Assembly: GCA_017444985.1 (NCBI GenBank)
Contig: JAFSVK010000004.1
Span: 1 to 50,397 of the forward strand
Origin: Bacillota bacterium
GTDB taxonomy: Bacteria; Bacillota; Clostridia; Lachnospirales; CAG-274
Direction of reading: 5' to 3'
Length of the DNA: 50,397 nucleotides
The notes under the pieces were generated by a model. It was given only the letters and a program-made list of their open reading frames with translations, ran no database searches and was not told the DNA's origin. Shown piece by piece: positions 15,214 through 24,332 of this stretch. The position numbers and the translations under genes were made by a program. Every line of letters starts with the position of its first letter. Positions within the stretch are counted from its first letter, which is position 1.

Positions 15214-15243
15214 TTTACAAGTTTCTTCTTGATATGCTATAAT
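15214..15243 (+). promoter_or_regulatory. Promoter of the prephenate-dehydratase-like lipoprotein gene
   Basis: TTTACA (15214-15219), 18 bases, TATAAT (15238-15243) with a TG one base before the -10; GGAGG follows before the ATG at 15286. Confidence 0.8.
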
Positions 15244-15285
15244 AAAAAAAATTTTACACTAACTTATAAAAAAACGGAGGAAAAA

Positions 15286-16209
15286 ATGAAAAAAATCGCT
15301 TTATTATTATTGATGTGCTGTATGTGCTTTTCAAATGTGGGATGCTCATCTTCTGCCCCACAGGCACAACAGCCTCAAACGGAAACGGAACAGCCCTCCT
15401 TTGCTACGGCAAAAGTAAGCTACTTAGGTCCCGAGGGAACATATACTCAAGAGGCTTGTGAGAAGTTTTTTGGTGGTTCGGGAGAATATATACCCTACAA
15501 AACAGTAGATGATGCGGTGGCGGCTCTTGTTAAAAGAGAGTCGGATCATGCCGTTATCCCTCAGGAAAATACCATAGGCGGTGCTGTAACGGATTATATC
15601 GATACTTTGATAGGAGAAAAAAGTCTCAGCGTTGTGGGGGAAGTGGAACTGCCCATAAGTCAAAATCTTCTTGTCTTACCCGATGCACAGTTGAGTGATA
15701 TTAAAACCGTCTATTCCCATAAACAAGGCATAGCCCAAGGGAAGGATTTTCTTGCCCAAAATCTCCCCGAGGCGGAAGTTGTTGAGGTGTCCAGTACGGC
15801 AGAGGGTGCAAAAAAAGTTGCAGAGGCCAAAGATAAAACCGCCGCAGCCATTGCCTCCGCAGGCTGTGCGGATGTGTATGGTTTAAAAATACTTTCTTCA
15901 AATATACAAAATAACGACCTGAATAAAACCAGATTCTATGTTTTGTCTACGGATAATGCCCCTATGGATAAAAAAGAAAGGTTTGCCTTTATTGCAAGCG
16001 GTGAAGCTAAAAACCTGCCAAAGCTTATGAATAAGCTGGAAAGCCTAAACGCCACCCTCATAACGATACATGACAGACCTCTTAAAACGGAACTTGGACA
16101 ATATAATTATGTCATAGAATGTGCCGAAGGCACCTACAACACCTATGAGGAACTTTCAAAAGTAGAAGGCTTTGAGTATCGTTTCCTCGGCTGCTTTGAC
16201 AGTTATTGA
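15286..16209 (+). CDS. Lipoprotein with prephenate dehydratase and ACT-like domains
   Basis: A 307-residue protein. A lipoprotein signal ends at C20 (FSNVGC), so the mature protein should sit outside the membrane. Residues ~43-222 are a prephenate dehydratase (PheA) domain: VSYLGPEGTYTQEA, the PQENTIGGAV loop (92-101), H145 in VYSHKQG and the catalytic TRF at 215-217. Residues ~231-305 resemble the PheA ACT regulatory domain, but its Phe-binding ESRP motif reads IHDRP. The enzyme is normally cytosolic in phenylalanine synthesis. Export suggests either an external enzyme or, since the catalytic domain has a periplasmic-binding-protein fold, a sensor or carrier for an aromatic compound. It is monocistronic with its own promoter. 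Confidence 0.87.
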   Translation: MKKIALLLLMCCMCFSNVGCSSSAPQAQQPQTETEQPSFATAKVSYLGPEGTYTQEACEKFFGGSGEYIPYKTVDDAVAALVKRESDHAVIPQENTIGGAVTDYIDTLIGEKSLSVVGEVELPISQNLLVLPDAQLSDIKTVYSHKQGIAQGKDFLAQNLPEAEVVEVSSTAEGAKKVAEAKDKTAAAIASAGCADVYGLKILSSNIQNNDLNKTRFYVLSTDNAPMDKKERFAFIASGEAKNLPKLMNKLESLNATLITIHDRPLKTELGQYNYVIECAEGTYNTYEELSKVEGFEYRFLGCFDSY

Positions 16210-16275: not shown

Positions 16276-16294
16276 GGTTCTGTTGCTGATATGT

Positions 16295-16368
<74 letters not shown>

Positions 16369-16376
16369 TCACATAT

Positions 16377-16449
16377 GGGAGCATAGCTCAGCTGGGAGAG
16401 CATCTGCCTTACAAGCAGAGGGTCATAGGTTCGAGCCCTATTGTTCCCA
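16377..16449 (+). tRNA. tRNA-Val (TAC)
   Basis: A 73-base cloverleaf. GGGAGCA pairs with TGTTCCC, the anticodon TAC is at 16410-16412 in CTTACAA, and the T-loop TTCGAGC is present. It starts 8 bases after tRNA-Asp. The CCA end is not encoded. Confidence 0.97.
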
Positions 16450-16477
16450 TATCGGGGAGGTCTACCCTCCCCCCTAA

Positions 16478-16561
16478 GCCCGAGTGGCGGAATTGGTAGA
16501 CGCAAGGGACTTAAAATCCCTCGATGGCAACATCGTACCGGTTCAAGTCCGGTCTCGGGCA
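16478..16561 (+). tRNA. tRNA-Leu (TAA)
   Basis: An 84-base class II tRNA. GCCCGAG pairs with CTCGGGC, the anticodon TAA is at 16512-16514, and a long variable arm (TCGATGGCAACATCG type) is present. Last gene of the cluster, followed by a terminator. Confidence 0.97.
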
Positions 16562-16615: not shown

Positions 16616-18589
16616 TTATTTCATATACCCAAGTTCCCTTGCCTTTTGAATATATCTCTGTCCCATTTCCTCATTCTTTTCCGTTCCACTGCCGTTGATA
16701 TACATCTCGCCTGTCATATAGCAAGCTTCCCCGTCACCCATATCGGCACAAATTTTACGCCACTTAAATGCTTGTTCAATATCTTTCGGGAAATCGACCG
16801 AACCGGTCAGATAGAGGTTTGCAAGATTAAATGCTGCATCTATACTGCCTTGTTTTGCCGCAAGTTCATAATAATAGGCAGCCTTTTCAGCAGATCTTTT
16901 AAATGCACCGAATTCATTTTCGGGTACAAGGTTTCTTGCAAGTTCATATTGAGCTTCCACATCACCGGCATCGGCCATCTCATAATATTTATTGACAAGG
17001 TCCCTATGCTTGTACCATTTTGAACCGGAACCTTGTACTCCGTGAACAACGGACATTTCCAAAATATTTCTTCCTGTGTCGTTATCAAATTTTTCAACAA
17101 TTTCACGAGCATTATCATGTCCGTTTGTCGCAGCCATTTTAAACCAATACATAGCCTTGTCTATATCCACATAAACTCCGCCTTCGCCCCAACGATAACA
17201 CATACCTGCATTGAACATGGCGTCAGCACTGCCTTTTTTTGCAGCCATTTCATAATAATAGCAAGCATAGATAACCATAGGTTTTGAGAATTTACCGCTA
17301 AAGATCATATCCGCAATATGTGAGAGTATACTTACATCGGCAGAACCGTCTTTTATCATCTCAAAAGCCGAAAGGTATATATCCATATCATCGTAGAAAT
17401 CATAACCTGCATATTCGTCCTCAAAAATATATCTTTTGCCGTCAAACTCATCGGAAGTCAAACCAAACTGTTCTAATCTTAAAGCCTGTACTGCACGTTT
17501 TCTCCAAAGTTCTATGCGTTCGACATCTTCTTTCTCCATTTGACCTATCTCTGCCATCTTAATACGACACAAAGGAATAATTATATTAGCATTGAACTGA
17601 GAGTCGTCCGTTAAATTGTCATTTATGTAGTCTATCGGATTTCGGTCGTCAACATATATAGATAAATTTCTGAACAACCGGAAGCAAGCGTTATGGTATG
17701 TTAATATCTTACGCTTTTTGTTTTCATCGTCACAAGAAATGTACATATTGTAATATTGCTTTCTTATATTTATCAATGCATTAAAACAATCCGTTTCTGT
17801 TTGACTTTTTTTCAATTCGGGCAGGGCAGATTCATATACGACAGTAAACACATCCGAGTTATAATATTCTACTTCTTTTTTTAAAAAATCTATGTATAAT
17901 TCCGCTTTAACAGAACCATTTGTGTATTCAATTCCCAACTTATCGGCAAGCTGCATTGCCGGTACAAAACCCATCTTTGCCGATGCTTTTAAATACTCCA
18001 GTCCTTCTTCGATGTTTCTTTCCACGCCATCACCTTGAAGCAAAAGAGTGGCATAATTAAAACTTCCTGCGGATGAACCCATTTCACCACTTATTTTATA
18101 TAAATAAGCAGCTTTGGAATGATCCACTTTAACTACACTATGTCCTGTCATATAAAAATCCGCAAGGAAATAATAACCCCTTTCATTTCCCAAGTTGGCT
18201 GCCATAGCAAACCAATAATATGCTTCAACAAAATTTGTTTCCGTTCCTTCGTGGTTTAAAAACATATATGCGGCATTAAAAGCTGCCATAGCGTGTTCTT
18301 TTGCTCCCGCTGCAGCAAAGTAAGCAATTGCATCTTTGTGATCTTTATCTCTTCCGTTAGTTCCGTTATAGTAATCCGTCCCCATCTGATAAAGAGTTTC
18401 CGCATCATATGACATTATGCCTGCATATGCCATATCAAATGCTTCACTTGCAGAATCTTCATCCACAAACATGCCACCGATTCCACCTTCAGCTATTACA
18501 AAAAGATCAAACACGGATAATCTGTGCAGATCATAGCTCACTCTCATAATGTCATCTTCAATAATCTTAAGATTTTTGTTAATCAACAT
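16616..18589 (-). CDS. Sel1-repeat protein
   Basis: A 657-residue soluble protein built largely of Sel1-like helical repeats, an interaction scaffold. Typical units include AMAAFNAAYMFLNHEGTETN, GSSAGSFNYATLLLQGDG, GSADAMFNAGMCYRWGEGG, GSIDAAFNLANLYLTGSV and GEACYMTGEMYINGSG. A less regular region at about 240-420 separates N- and C-terminal repeat blocks. No signal peptide or membrane segment. GGAGGTG precedes the ATG at 18589; an upstream in-frame start would lie in repeat-derived sequence. It is the last gene of the large minus-strand run, separated from the previous one by repeat copy 3. It could be an adaptor of that system or an unrelated neighbour. Confidence 0.85.
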   Translation of the reverse strand: MLINKNLKIIEDDIMRVSYDLHRLSVFDLFVIAEGGIGGMFVDEDSASEAFDMAYAGIMSYDAETLYQMGTDYYNGTNGRDKDHKDAIAYFAAAGAKEHAMAAFNAAYMFLNHEGTETNFVEAYYWFAMAANLGNERGYYFLADFYMTGHSVVKVDHSKAAYLYKISGEMGSSAGSFNYATLLLQGDGVERNIEEGLEYLKASAKMGFVPAMQLADKLGIEYTNGSVKAELYIDFLKKEVEYYNSDVFTVVYESALPELKKSQTETDCFNALINIRKQYYNMYISCDDENKKRKILTYHNACFRLFRNLSIYVDDRNPIDYINDNLTDDSQFNANIIIPLCRIKMAEIGQMEKEDVERIELWRKRAVQALRLEQFGLTSDEFDGKRYIFEDEYAGYDFYDDMDIYLSAFEMIKDGSADVSILSHIADMIFSGKFSKPMVIYACYYYEMAAKKGSADAMFNAGMCYRWGEGGVYVDIDKAMYWFKMAATNGHDNAREIVEKFDNDTGRNILEMSVVHGVQGSGSKWYKHRDLVNKYYEMADAGDVEAQYELARNLVPENEFGAFKRSAEKAAYYYELAAKQGSIDAAFNLANLYLTGSVDFPKDIEQAFKWRKICADMGDGEACYMTGEMYINGSGTEKNEEMGQRYIQKARELGYMK

Positions 18590-18620
18590 AACAGCACCTC
18601 CATATAATCTCTCAGTATTT

Positions 18621-18644
18621 AGGTGAGCTCTAAAAAGCACTATT
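18621..18644 (+). repeat. Truncated left end of the 157-bp repeat
   Basis: AGGTGAGCTCTAAAAAGCAC plus TATT repeats, with substitutions, the left terminal sequence of the element just before full copy 3. It looks like the remains of an older insertion or a partial duplication. Confidence 0.5.
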
Positions 18645-18648
18645 TAAA

Positions 18649-18799
18649 GGCACCTCTAAAAAGTGCTATTGAAGTAAAATTGAGATATCTTGTTCAAAAA
18701 CCGGGAACCGGCTCGAAGCCAAAGTGGAGCATTGGTGAAAGACATTGACGCCTAAGCCCGGCAAGATAGTCAATTTTACGATTTGTTTTAGATATCACC
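18649..18799 (+). repeat. 157-bp interspersed palindromic repeat, copy 3 (degraded)
   Basis: It starts GGCACCTCTAAAAAGTGC. The centre carries substitutions and the right end is shortened to TTTTAGATATCACC. Despite this decay the right end still supplies the last codons (GDI) and the TAA of the minus-strand gene at 18788. Confidence 0.85.
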
Positions 18800-19627
18800 T
18801 TGAGGAAAACTTTTCTCATTCTTATTCACACTAAAACCTATGTTGGTTACATTTCTCTGTCTTTTCCTATTGCCTATTATGTTCATGAACAAATTTTCCG
18901 ACATGAGGCTTACTGGATTAAAATTTACCCCATTGTTACTGCCATAGTAATACCAAAGCGAAGATTTAAGCCACAGATCCAATATGTGAAAGTTAATATA
19001 GGCTCTGTATCTTACGAGAAAATTTTTCAACCAAACCTTTTGCTTATCCTCTAAAGAAACGGAGTACTCTCGTAACCTTTCCGTGACCCATAGGAAATAC
19101 TCTTCCACTGTAAGATTTTCTACATCATAACAGAGAGTGAAAACCTCATTTTCAAGTAAATTTTGAATTTCGGAATCTTCGTTATTGCTACACGATATAA
19201 AAACCATAAAATTTTTTTTGCATCTGCGAATATCACAAAATAACCGTTCCCACCACAGAATGTCATGCTTAATATTTTTGTAATCTTGGATAACGAGCAT
19301 GATAACACCGTATTCGTAATGATATCTGCCTCTTACAAAATCCAACCATTGCCCCAGTCCTTTTTTATGCTCTCCCGAACCATTTAGTAACAAAAGTTGA
19401 TTTTCTCCTTTTATATATTCTGCCGAAAAGCAAATAAAAGCACTTGAATTAGATGGTATAATATTTTTTTCTTCCAGCTCGAGCCGAAATTCATTCAGAG
19501 TAGACTGCAAAAAACCACTATCCTCTGTATGATTTAACAACAAATAAACAGGACATAGTTCAAACAGTATGTCCCCGTTTACTTTTTTACTTATGCTGTA
19601 AAAATCTTCCTTTATTTTTTTTATCAT
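18788..19627 (-). CDS. Uncharacterised protein following a VirD4-like ATPase gene
   Basis: A 279-residue protein that I do not recognise. It is soluble, without signal peptide or P-loop, and alternates beta-like stretches (AFICFSAEYIKG, GVIMLVIQDYK, NFMVFISCSNN) with helices rich in Trp and Tyr, which recalls a Rossmann-like ATPase fold without its nucleotide motifs. It starts 12 bases after the VirD4-like gene ends, with AGGAAG before the ATG, so the two are coupled and both lie between repeat copies 3 and 4. The final GDI and stop are encoded by degraded repeat DNA. Confidence 0.7.
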   Translation of the reverse strand: MIKKIKEDFYSISKKVNGDILFELCPVYLLLNHTEDSGFLQSTLNEFRLELEEKNIIPSNSSAFICFSAEYIKGENQLLLLNGSGEHKKGLGQWLDFVRGRYHYEYGVIMLVIQDYKNIKHDILWWERLFCDIRRCKKNFMVFISCSNNEDSEIQNLLENEVFTLCYDVENLTVEEYFLWVTERLREYSVSLEDKQKVWLKNFLVRYRAYINFHILDLWLKSSLWYYYGSNNGVNFNPVSLMSENLFMNIIGNRKRQRNVTNIGFSVNKNEKSFPQGDI

Positions 19628-19639
19628 AGACTCTTCCTA

Positions 19640-21139
19640 TCAATTAAACAGATCCTCTATCGTCGGAGTATCCTTTGTTTCTTCCAATTCTTTCGTCAGT
19701 TTATCATGTACGCATTTTAAAACCGAAAAACAGCTTACCTTCTCATGCCAAGGCAGAGGAATATTATATACATCATATCCCACTTGCGGATATACCGAAA
19801 AATCCTTCACTCGAGAAATATATGGTGCAATTCCCGAACGTAACACAAGTGCCTCACTGTCTTCCCAACCGATTTGCAACCTTTGAAGCTGTGTTATGGT
19901 AAGGAGAGGATATTCTCTTTCATCGATCTCCACACTTCCGCATAATTGCTCGATCTCTTTAAGCAAATTCAACTCTCTGCAGGACAAATATACCCAATTT
20001 TTACAATTGGACTTTATTGTTTCGGCATCATCTCCGTACTCTGCCAAAAGTTGTTGTTTACTTTGCACAACAAGAACAAACCTTATATTTCTGCTGCGGG
20101 CAGCCGAGATCATAGCAGGCATATCCGCTATTTTAGGGAAATTTGAAAACTCGTCAAGTATGAAGTTTACCCTTATGGGAAGGATGCCATTTCTGCAGTC
20201 CTTCGCTTTATCTATAAGGTTTTCGTAACATTGTTTTACAAATACACTTATCAGAAAATGATATGTGGTTTTCTCATCGGGTGTTATTAAATACAGAGCA
20301 GTTTTTTCCTCTGTTATTTTACCGAAGCCTATCTCATTTGCATTGATAAGATCCATCAATTTTTCATTGAATATAAAACTTCTTAACATAGAGTCAAATG
20401 TACTGACAACACAATTCAAAGTTTTTTCCACATTACGCAAAGTATACACCGATGCAAGTTTGTAGCGAACAAGGGAATTTTCGGAGAAAGTCCGTATAAG
20501 ATCCCAAAATATGGAACTTCTCGTTTCCGAAGTATCTTCAATCTCTATATACATCCTCATTCGCTGGATACTTTCCATGTGTATTTTCTTCTCGTCATCC
20601 TCACTTTCAAAAAGCATCAGTATCATTCCCATCAAGAGATCTGCCGCTTGATTTTCCCAGTACAGATCTCTCTCGGAATGCACCTGTGCCTTTAACTGTG
20701 CGCAAAGATCCGAGATCATTTCAATAGCTTTATCCGCATTACCGTTCTTATAGTAACGGTATGGCAGCATAAGAGGATTCCACCTTGAACTTTTTTCCGG
20801 TTCTCGCAGGTTCAGAGTTTTTATGGTATATCCCTTATGTGCCAAAAACCCCGAGGTGTTTCTGTAGATTTCCCCTTTGGGATCTGAAATTATCATAGAT
20901 TCTCCCGCCATCCCAAGAGTATAAACACTCGGTATACAAAAATTTCTTGTCTTTTTTGAACCCGTGTTTCCGAATATTAGGGTATGAGCATCCGTAGTAT
21001 CGGTATAAACAATACCATTTTCGTAATAAAACGGAACTCCCGACAAATTACATTCTGAATTCAAATCTTGTCCTGTAAGTGTCTGAATAAATTCATTTTT
21101 AGTGGATAATCTGTTTCCGTTTAATCTCACTGTTTCCAT
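19640..21139 (-). CDS. VirD4/TraG-like coupling ATPase, altered Walker A, no membrane anchor
   Basis: A 499-residue protein of the conjugative coupling-protein family. The P-loop region reads LIFGNTGSKKTRN: the Gly before the catalytic Lys of GxxGxGKT is Lys (K62). MIISDPKGEIYRNT follows, and Walker B is FILDEFSNFPKIADM (D329, E330), then SRNIRFVLVVQSKQQL. The N-terminal membrane anchor of true coupling proteins is absent. No relaxase, VirB4, VirB6 or oriT-like neighbour is present. Its partner is the unknown protein just downstream, and repeat copies 3 and 4 flank the pair. I infer a domesticated or exchanged payload ATPase attached to the GTPase system; a decayed conjugation remnant is the alternative, but the frame is intact. 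Confidence 0.85.
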   Translation of the reverse strand: METVRLNGNRLSTKNEFIQTLTGQDLNSECNLSGVPFYYENGIVYTDTTDAHTLIFGNTGSKKTRNFCIPSVYTLGMAGESMIISDPKGEIYRNTSGFLAHKGYTIKTLNLREPEKSSRWNPLMLPYRYYKNGNADKAIEMISDLCAQLKAQVHSERDLYWENQAADLLMGMILMLFESEDDEKKIHMESIQRMRMYIEIEDTSETRSSIFWDLIRTFSENSLVRYKLASVYTLRNVEKTLNCVVSTFDSMLRSFIFNEKLMDLINANEIGFGKITEEKTALYLITPDEKTTYHFLISVFVKQCYENLIDKAKDCRNGILPIRVNFILDEFSNFPKIADMPAMISAARSRNIRFVLVVQSKQQLLAEYGDDAETIKSNCKNWVYLSCRELNLLKEIEQLCGSVEIDEREYPLLTITQLQRLQIGWEDSEALVLRSGIAPYISRVKDFSVYPQVGYDVYNIPLPWHEKVSCFSVLKCVHDKLTKELEETKDTPTIEDLFN

Positions 21140-23489: not shown

Positions 23490-24332
23490 TTATTCCATAT
23501 TCTCAGTGTTAAGCTTGTCATATAAGGCAGTATCAAGCTCATACCTGTCAATATCGGAATAATCCCACCACTCTCCTCGATATCCGCTAAACCCGTTCCT
23601 GTACATTACTTCTTCCAATAGCCTTGCATTTGTAGCTGCAGTTTCCGATACATCACTGTAATCTCTGTCTGCAGTCGTCGTAAATTCATCAAACTCCGAG
23701 GGCATCTCCACAGCGGAACCATCTTCATATACCAAAGAAATATCTACCGTATCTCCGCGACTATGACTTGTTATTCCTTTATTCGGATTGGCAACATAGG
23801 TAGGGTCGGGATATGTTTCCCACAATTTCCATTGTGCTTGAGGTGAACGATAGGCATCCCATATCAGAATACGATACCCCATATCTTTAAGTTCCTTTTG
23901 CACCAATATCAGCTTCCTAACGGTACCGTAGCACAAAAATGCCTCTGAATTATCATATATAACTTTTCCCGTAAAATTATTTGTTGTCGCATACCTAAGA
24001 TCTATTTCTGCATCGGGTATATAGTCAAGAATATTAACAAGTTGCCCGTCATCAGGTATGCTTTCATTTAAATTTTCATCCGCCTCGTTCGGGTGTGTTG
24101 TATCCTCCGAAGGTTCTTGTGTTATAACAGATGCAGTTTCCGTGGTGTCTTCTGTAAAGTATTGTGTTATAACAGAGGTATTTTCCGTTGTATCTTCCAA
24201 AGCTGTATTCAAAAACGTCGACTTTACTGTAGTCTGTTCATCAGTATCAACCGATGTATCTTTAGACAAGCATCCTGTAAATACCACAGCATACACCCAT
24301 AATAACAGTAATAATATCAATATTCTTCTCAT
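23490..24332 (-). CDS. VanX-like D-Ala-D-Ala dipeptidase lipoprotein with altered zinc ligand
   Basis: A 280-residue protein of peptidase family M15D. A lipoprotein signal ends at C21 (VVFTGC). Residues ~24-92 are a Thr/Glu-rich spacer with repeated TSVITQ/ASVITQ units. The catalytic domain then shows the VanX markers DYIPDAEIDLRYATTNNF, DAYRSPQAQW, SHSRGDTVDI (H190, D197) and GEWWDYSD. In VanX the last motif is EWWH, whose His binds zinc; here it is Asp (D257), while the catalytic Glu (E254) remains. Activity may be lost or altered. VanX is usually cytosolic, so outward anchoring is also unusual. No vanH/A or VanRS genes lie nearby, arguing against vancomycin resistance. Confidence 0.86.
   Translation of the reverse strand: MRRILILLLLLWVYAVVFTGCLSKDTSVDTDEQTTVKSTFLNTALEDTTENTSVITQYFTEDTTETASVITQEPSEDTTHPNEADENLNESIPDDGQLVNILDYIPDAEIDLRYATTNNFTGKVIYDNSEAFLCYGTVRKLILVQKELKDMGYRILIWDAYRSPQAQWKLWETYPDPTYVANPNKGITSHSRGDTVDISLVYEDGSAVEMPSEFDEFTTTADRDYSDVSETAATNARLLEEVMYRNGFSGYRGEWWDYSDIDRYELDTALYDKLNTENME

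Follow-up and report, generated by a model that had tools for sequence, protein, structure and literature searches.

xPDT, a patchily distributed family of probable exported prephenate dehydratases from gut bacteria that lacks the phenylalanine-binding motifs

The window analysed here comprises 50,397 nucleotides of contig JAFSVK010000004.1 from a Bacillota bacterium of the CAG-274 lineage. It carries a relative of prephenate dehydratase (PDT), termed xPDT in the following, which is encoded at 15286-16209 on the plus strand by an open reading frame of 307 amino acids with an ATG start. The gene is solitary, with a divergent gene on its 5' side and three tRNA genes on its 3' side. The features assigned to it are as follows.

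15214..15243, plus strand: sigma-70-type promoter-like site, TTTACA-18-TATAAT, 11/12 with extended -10 (consensus match only)
15276..15280, plus strand: Shine-Dalgarno sequence GGAGG, 5 nt upstream of the ATG
15286..15342, plus strand: signal peptide, amino acids 1-19, with MKK, a hydrophobic core and an SNVG end (Asn at -3 atypical)
15343..15345, plus strand: Cys20, the presumed lipidated cysteine (Lgt and LspA genes in the genome)
15346..15414, plus strand: low-complexity tether rich in Ser, Gln, Thr, Glu and Pro, amino acids 21-43 (AF2 pLDDT below 50 at amino acids 26-33)
15415..15954, plus strand: prephenate dehydratase domain PF00800, amino acids 44-223, with E94, N95, S144, Q151, T215, R216 and F217
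15955..16206, plus strand: ACT-like C-terminal domain, amino acids 224-307, without the Phe-binding GALV and ESRP and with the family motif IHDRPxKT

The likely transcript includes the stretch coding for the signal, and the evidence for initiation at this ATG far exceeds that for any start further downstream. The tRNA genes directly 3' of xPDT are those for Asp, Val and Leu (16294-16561). They are followed on the minus strand, at 16616-21139, by genes for a Sel1-repeat-like protein, a 279-amino-acid ORF and a VirD4/TraG-like coupling-protein ORF of 499 amino acids, all read by eye; together with the tRNA genes these possibly form a tRNA-associated island. A D-Ala-D-Ala dipeptidase-like lipoprotein, also read by eye, is encoded at 23490-24332 on the minus strand.

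The N-terminus of the window xPDT (MKKIALLLLMCCMCFSNVG-C20-SSS) is a signal of the Sec/lipoprotein type. It combines a lipoprotein n-region, a hydrophobic h-region and a Cys within the first 35 residues (MKK-IALLLLMCCMCFSNVG-C20). The lipobox reads S-N-V-G-C, in which the canonical residue at -3 is replaced by Asn, and it is missed by a strict pattern. The usual lipobox classes (PROSITE PS51257, G+LPP patterns) do not allow for Asn at this position, which makes cleavage and lipidation of the window copy less sure. Canonical lipoboxes such as SVTGC and LIIGC are present in near relatives, and both Lgt and LspA are encoded in the window's genome. A hydrophobic N-terminal segment ahead of the domain was found in 54 of 60 xPDTs and a strict lipobox in 43, compared with 0 of 38 canonical PDTs for either feature. 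L057, L058 and L077 carry a simple signal or membrane anchor, and L060 has an extra N-terminal stretch. The signals differ in sequence across the family and share the same architecture. These features predict that the window xPDT is exported and probably lipid-anchored.

Residues 44-223 matched PF00800 with E 1.5e-60 and 204.6 bits (Pfam gathering cut-off 25.2). The score against the NCBIfam equivalog for prephenate dehydratase, PRK11898.1, was 210.8 bits, just short of the curated cut-off of 219. Catalytic residues are numbered here as in enterobacterial PheA, via Salmonella PheA. N160, S208, Q215 and T278, said to be the four catalytic residues named by Zhang et al. in 2000, are together with E159 100% identical in 59-60 homologues, that is, in all copies covering them. 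For E159, a substrate-binding residue, and for the TRF motif, the roles follow what PMC8192741 and PMC10845154 cite. TRF is located at 215-217 of the window xPDT, and its Arg is present in 100% of xPDTs versus 64% of canonical sequences. Of the 15 PDT positions conserved to at least 95% in canonical enzymes, 14 are kept in xPDT, the remaining one being changed from Ser to Thr. Among the xPDTs, the most distant of which share about 42% identity with the window copy, 52 of 180 PDT positions are conserved to at least 97%.

Ten positions, among them Q93, Y104, K146, Y218 and H262, are near-invariant in xPDT and differ from the canonical enzymes. Several of these fixed residues adjoin active-site motifs in sequence (Q93 by E94-N95, K146 by S144-H145, and Y218). 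They could represent a shift possibly including the substrate, or could tune extracellular stability or dimer contacts. The family is further characterized by the motifs AVIPQENTIGG, YSHKQG and IHDRPxKT. Cys58, Cys194 and Cys279, looked at as disulphide candidates, mostly co-occur and are found in most Bacillota members; they are absent from a Coriobacteria subclade. The AF2 model of xPDT (46 sequences) had a mean pLDDT of 90.3, and its best PDB matches were PDT-ACT structures, with 2qmx at Z 28.3 and rmsd 2.2 over 259 residues covering the whole mature protein. Structures of GqqA were also among the top matches (Z 27.3; 22-24% identity in structural alignments), whereas ModA, PtxB and BvgS matched more weakly.

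In the ACT-like domain, IHDRP is found at 261-265 of the window xPDT where ESRP would be expected, and IHDRPxKT.LG.Y is the ACT motif peculiar to the family. GALV and ESRP are the Phe-binding motifs of the ACT domain (PMC10845154). Gly309 of GALV drops from 100% in canonical sequences to 2% in xPDT, and Ser330 of ESRP from 100% to 0%. Since the Phe-binding residues are gone from the ACT-like domain, xPDT is predicted to lack inhibition by Phe and should escape this feedback. Our analysis confirmed what the first-pass annotation had read at this locus, namely a lipobox with C20, a full dehydratase domain with TRF at 215-217, and IHDRP in place of ESRP, with the Asn at -3 as a caveat.

The window's genome (2.67 Mb, 98.5% complete) contains two PDT genes. 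The second one, L002 (1216-2091, minus strand), has no signal, a standard ACT domain and an FSRP motif; it is a canonical cytosolic PDT-ACT by these features and the expected PheA of this genome. A search for a second, cytosolic pheA had been proposed as a check in the first-pass annotation, and L002 is such a gene; the case raised there against an exported role, that xPDT is the sole pheA and cytosolic, did not occur. At least one further PDT match was present in 47 of 50 carrier genomes checked. In one genome (G024, 96% complete; L033/L004) the exported PDT was the sole PDT found, and a cytosolic pheA is either missing from the assembly or lacking in the organism.

The chorismate mutase of the window's genome is of the AroH type and, as read by eye, forms a fusion with cytidylate kinase. 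Fusions of AroH-type chorismate mutase to an apparent cytidylate kinase were seen on contig C58 of G000 (L123, 1439-2452) and in L120, L121 and L122, and in the window's lineage the fusion adjoins a gene for an HI0933-like flavoprotein. L109-L115 from Lachnospiraceae encode fusions, about 260-310 amino acids long, of AroQ chorismate mutase with a shikimate-kinase-like domain, and most of these genomes also carry the xPDT fusions described below. No exported chorismate mutase partner was found, the chorismate mutase loci inspected in full (e.g. the shikimate kinase and AroH-Cmk fusions) being without a signal. Likewise, neither an exported chorismate mutase nor a transporter was found beside xPDT, and the Pfam scan of the window xPDT gave no chorismate mutase domain.

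The scan of genome contigs resulted in 67 loci, and the proteins of about 60 of them share 42-73% identity with the window xPDT. The architecture of signal, PDT and ACT-like domain recurs in about 60 homologues and hence is not a chance arrangement in the window copy. According to NCBI titles, the carriers are mostly Oscillospiraceae, Lachnospiraceae and other Bacillota, together with eight Actinomycetota (Coriobacteria) and one Candidatus Riflebacteria, and 49 of 64 carrier records checked have names pointing to ruminants. The family-specific coding pattern AVIPQENT was present in 6 of the 48 genomes from the window's family and in 9 of the 392 from its order. Thus, the family has a patchy distribution among bacteria of the gut, chiefly the rumen, and spans at least two phyla. 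In the tree, a branch with support 100 separates the xPDTs, as a single clade, from the 38 canonical PDTs sampled, which are mostly from relatives rather than from all phyla. Family labels on the tree need 13 changes compared with a minimum of 7, and the signs of horizontal transfer of xPDT are suggestive only. A mobile-element origin was rejected: plasmids and phages gave no close homologue, their best matches being canonical PDTs below 40% identity, and viral contigs gave none either.

Beyond the 54 xPDTs with a hydrophobic N-terminal segment, five further members, all from Lachnospiraceae (L044, L053, L056, L061 and L087), have xPDT as the C-terminal half of a longer exported protein. Its N-terminal half, which has its own signal, belongs to the histidine acid phosphatases (PF00328) and is closest to the glucose-1-phosphatase Agp; for L044 this half matched the Agp structures 3ntl (E 2e-74) and 1nt4 (E 7e-72). 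To our knowledge, no fusion of Agp to PDT-ACT has been known. L089 has a dockerin-bearing Agp homologue, apparently split in two frames, and an HAD-phosphatase lipoprotein upstream of xPDT in the same direction. The gene neighbourhood was also considered as a clue to xPDT function and rejected, as no neighbour was stable across 69 loci and the neighbours showed no enrichment of exported proteins (Fisher p = 0.35). Recurrent but rare neighbours were HAD phosphatases (L089 and L088, and inside a dockerin protein in L054), PAP2 (L053, L056) and a nucleoside-deoxyribosyltransferase lipoprotein (L034, with a homologue near L033). The latter, a nucleoside 2-deoxyribosyltransferase-domain lipoprotein near or beside xPDT (L033 7525-8949, L034 4182-4856), is, like xPDT, a lipobox-bearing protein of an enzyme type that is normally cytosolic. 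L033 also has an acetolactate-decarboxylase-like gene.

The sequences provide an export signal, kept catalytic residues, lost Phe motifs, a separate cytosolic paralogue and conservation throughout the family, and from these we infer enzyme activity, substrate, lipidation and role. xPDT is probably an exported, presumably lipid-anchored, feedback-insensitive and active prephenate (or arogenate) dehydratase. The Sec-type signal would move the protein across the membrane, where C20 or an uncleaved anchor would tether it outside. The two-lobed PDT domain with its Glu/Asn/Ser/Gln/Thr site would then decarboxylate and dehydrate extracellular prephenate to phenylpyruvate, or convert arogenate to Phe, and the ACT-like domain is presumably kept for dimerisation. 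Because no exported chorismate mutase was seen, the sources left for prephenate would be lysed neighbouring cells, leakage and, in the rumen, material from plants. At the cell surface, prephenate from lysed cells or leaking from the owner's cytosol may be turned into a keto acid that is taken up and transaminated. Tentatively, the role of xPDT might therefore be the salvage of prephenate as an importable keto acid. The fused Agp phosphatases may follow the same logic, in that charged, non-importable intracellular metabolites would be converted to importable ones. Quite possibly, the xPDTs are a gut-specific and probably exchanged family of surface enzymes for an extracellular shikimate step, which arose from PheA independently of PheC, have exported phosphatase partners and act in salvage or signalling fed by lysed neighbours.

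Several other readings were weighed against an exported dehydratase. An exported enzyme with an altered substrate, such as a GqqA-like quorum-quenching acylase or an enzyme for another cyclohexadienyl compound, is unlikely. The PDT-family protein GqqA does cleave N-acyl-homoserine lactones (PMC8192741) and is among the top structural matches, and the xPDT-specific residues Q93 and K146 lie next to catalytic motifs. However, GqqA is only 22-24% identical and is reported to have only two of the four catalytic residues (PMC8192741), all four of which are present in xPDTs, and it still complements a PDT mutant itself (PMC8192741). An exported binding protein or sensor derived from PDT, holding an aromatic ligand in its cleft without turning it over and signalling this to a partner, is distinctly unlikely. 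It would fit the likeness of the PDT fold to solute-binding proteins (the weaker ModA, PtxB and BvgS matches), the fact that binding proteins of Gram-positive bacteria are lipoproteins like xPDT, and the signalling proposed for exported CM-CDT enzymes (PMC10520331). Yet no permease, kinase or chemoreceptor is a conserved neighbour, and the fusion partner is a phosphatase instead of a signalling domain. The first-pass annotation had left the choice between an external enzyme and such a sensor or binding protein. The former gained from the invariance of the catalytic residues in about 60 diverse members, and the latter is less supported, as a pure binder is not expected to keep them. On the sequence evidence, the external enzyme is favoured.

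That xPDT is an exported duplicate in decay without a selected role outside the cell is very unlikely. Its patchy presence among the genomes of family and order and the absence of conserved neighbours would agree with decay, but the strong conservation of the PDT domain and the several anchoring solutions (lipobox, transmembrane segment, Agp fusion) argue against it. That xPDT is a cytosolic PheA whose start was misread, the hydrophobic stretch being untranslated, is hardly credible, even though the domain starts only at residue 44. Translation beginning after the signal, which the first-pass annotation had named as a finding that would overturn its reading, is contradicted by the position of the Shine-Dalgarno sequence and promoter upstream of the first ATG and by the lack of an ATG between signal and domain. 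The architecture of the signals is moreover kept family-wide despite differing sequence, and a separate cytosolic copy is present; a misread start is thus already largely refuted. Beyond that annotation, xPDT is a family, the Phe site of its ACT domain is lost family-wide, and it occurs in phosphatase fusions.

As far as could be searched, the exported dehydratase described here is a genuine variant of a known enzyme that has previously gone unremarked. The literature searched, which covered few subscription journals and thus does not prove priority, contained no description of a PDT as exported, secreted or a lipoprotein. Since isolate- or strain-titled records carry xPDT (Lachnospiraceae NK4A144, KH1T2 and KH1P17; Ruminococcaceae YRB3002), the question of why bacteria export shikimate-pathway enzymes can probably be addressed directly in culture.

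xPDT shares domain order, fold and all catalytic residues with canonical PDT-ACT enzymes of the PheA type (L002; PDB 2qmx, 6vh5), but differs from them in its export signal, its own clade and motifs, and the lack of GALV and ESRP. GqqA of Komagataeibacter europaeus, a bifunctional AHL acylase/PDT, has the same PDT-ACT fold; in contrast to xPDT, no signal peptide is mentioned for it, it is reported to have only two of the four catalytic residues and Phe is bound in its ACT domain (PMC8192741). E. coli Agp is exported like the N-terminal half of the fusions, which differ from it by the joined PDT-ACT. The closest parallel in function is PheC of P. aeruginosa with the exported CM-CDT fusions. PheC contains neither PF00800 nor ACT, and the window xPDT, scanned against Pfam at E up to 1, matched PF00800 and no solute-binding family. 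Exported, Phe-insensitive CDT enzymes are known, and PheC is considered a descendant of solute-binding proteins (PMC10520331). Like these, xPDT would be exported and not regulated by Phe, with the same chemistry expected, a cytosolic counterpart and a two-lobed unit resembling binding proteins. Unlike them, it is derived from the PheA family, lacks the AroQ-gamma chorismate mutase domain of the CM-CDT fusions, occurs as a lipoprotein and in Agp fusions, and is found in Clostridia-type gut anaerobes instead of Proteobacteria. The export of shikimate-pathway enzymes, with cases in Proteobacteria, has been called an enigma by Stocker et al. 2023 (PMC10520331). To these cases xPDT adds a second exported dehydratase, one that evolved separately and is found in several families of gut bacteria. 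Its sequences speak for kept catalysis and lost feedback, and carrier cells probably perform one step of the shikimate pathway extracellularly. As far as can be inferred by analogy, PheC and xPDT would represent convergent export of the same step by different protein families, and such convergence speaks for a genuine presence of prephenate outside cells.
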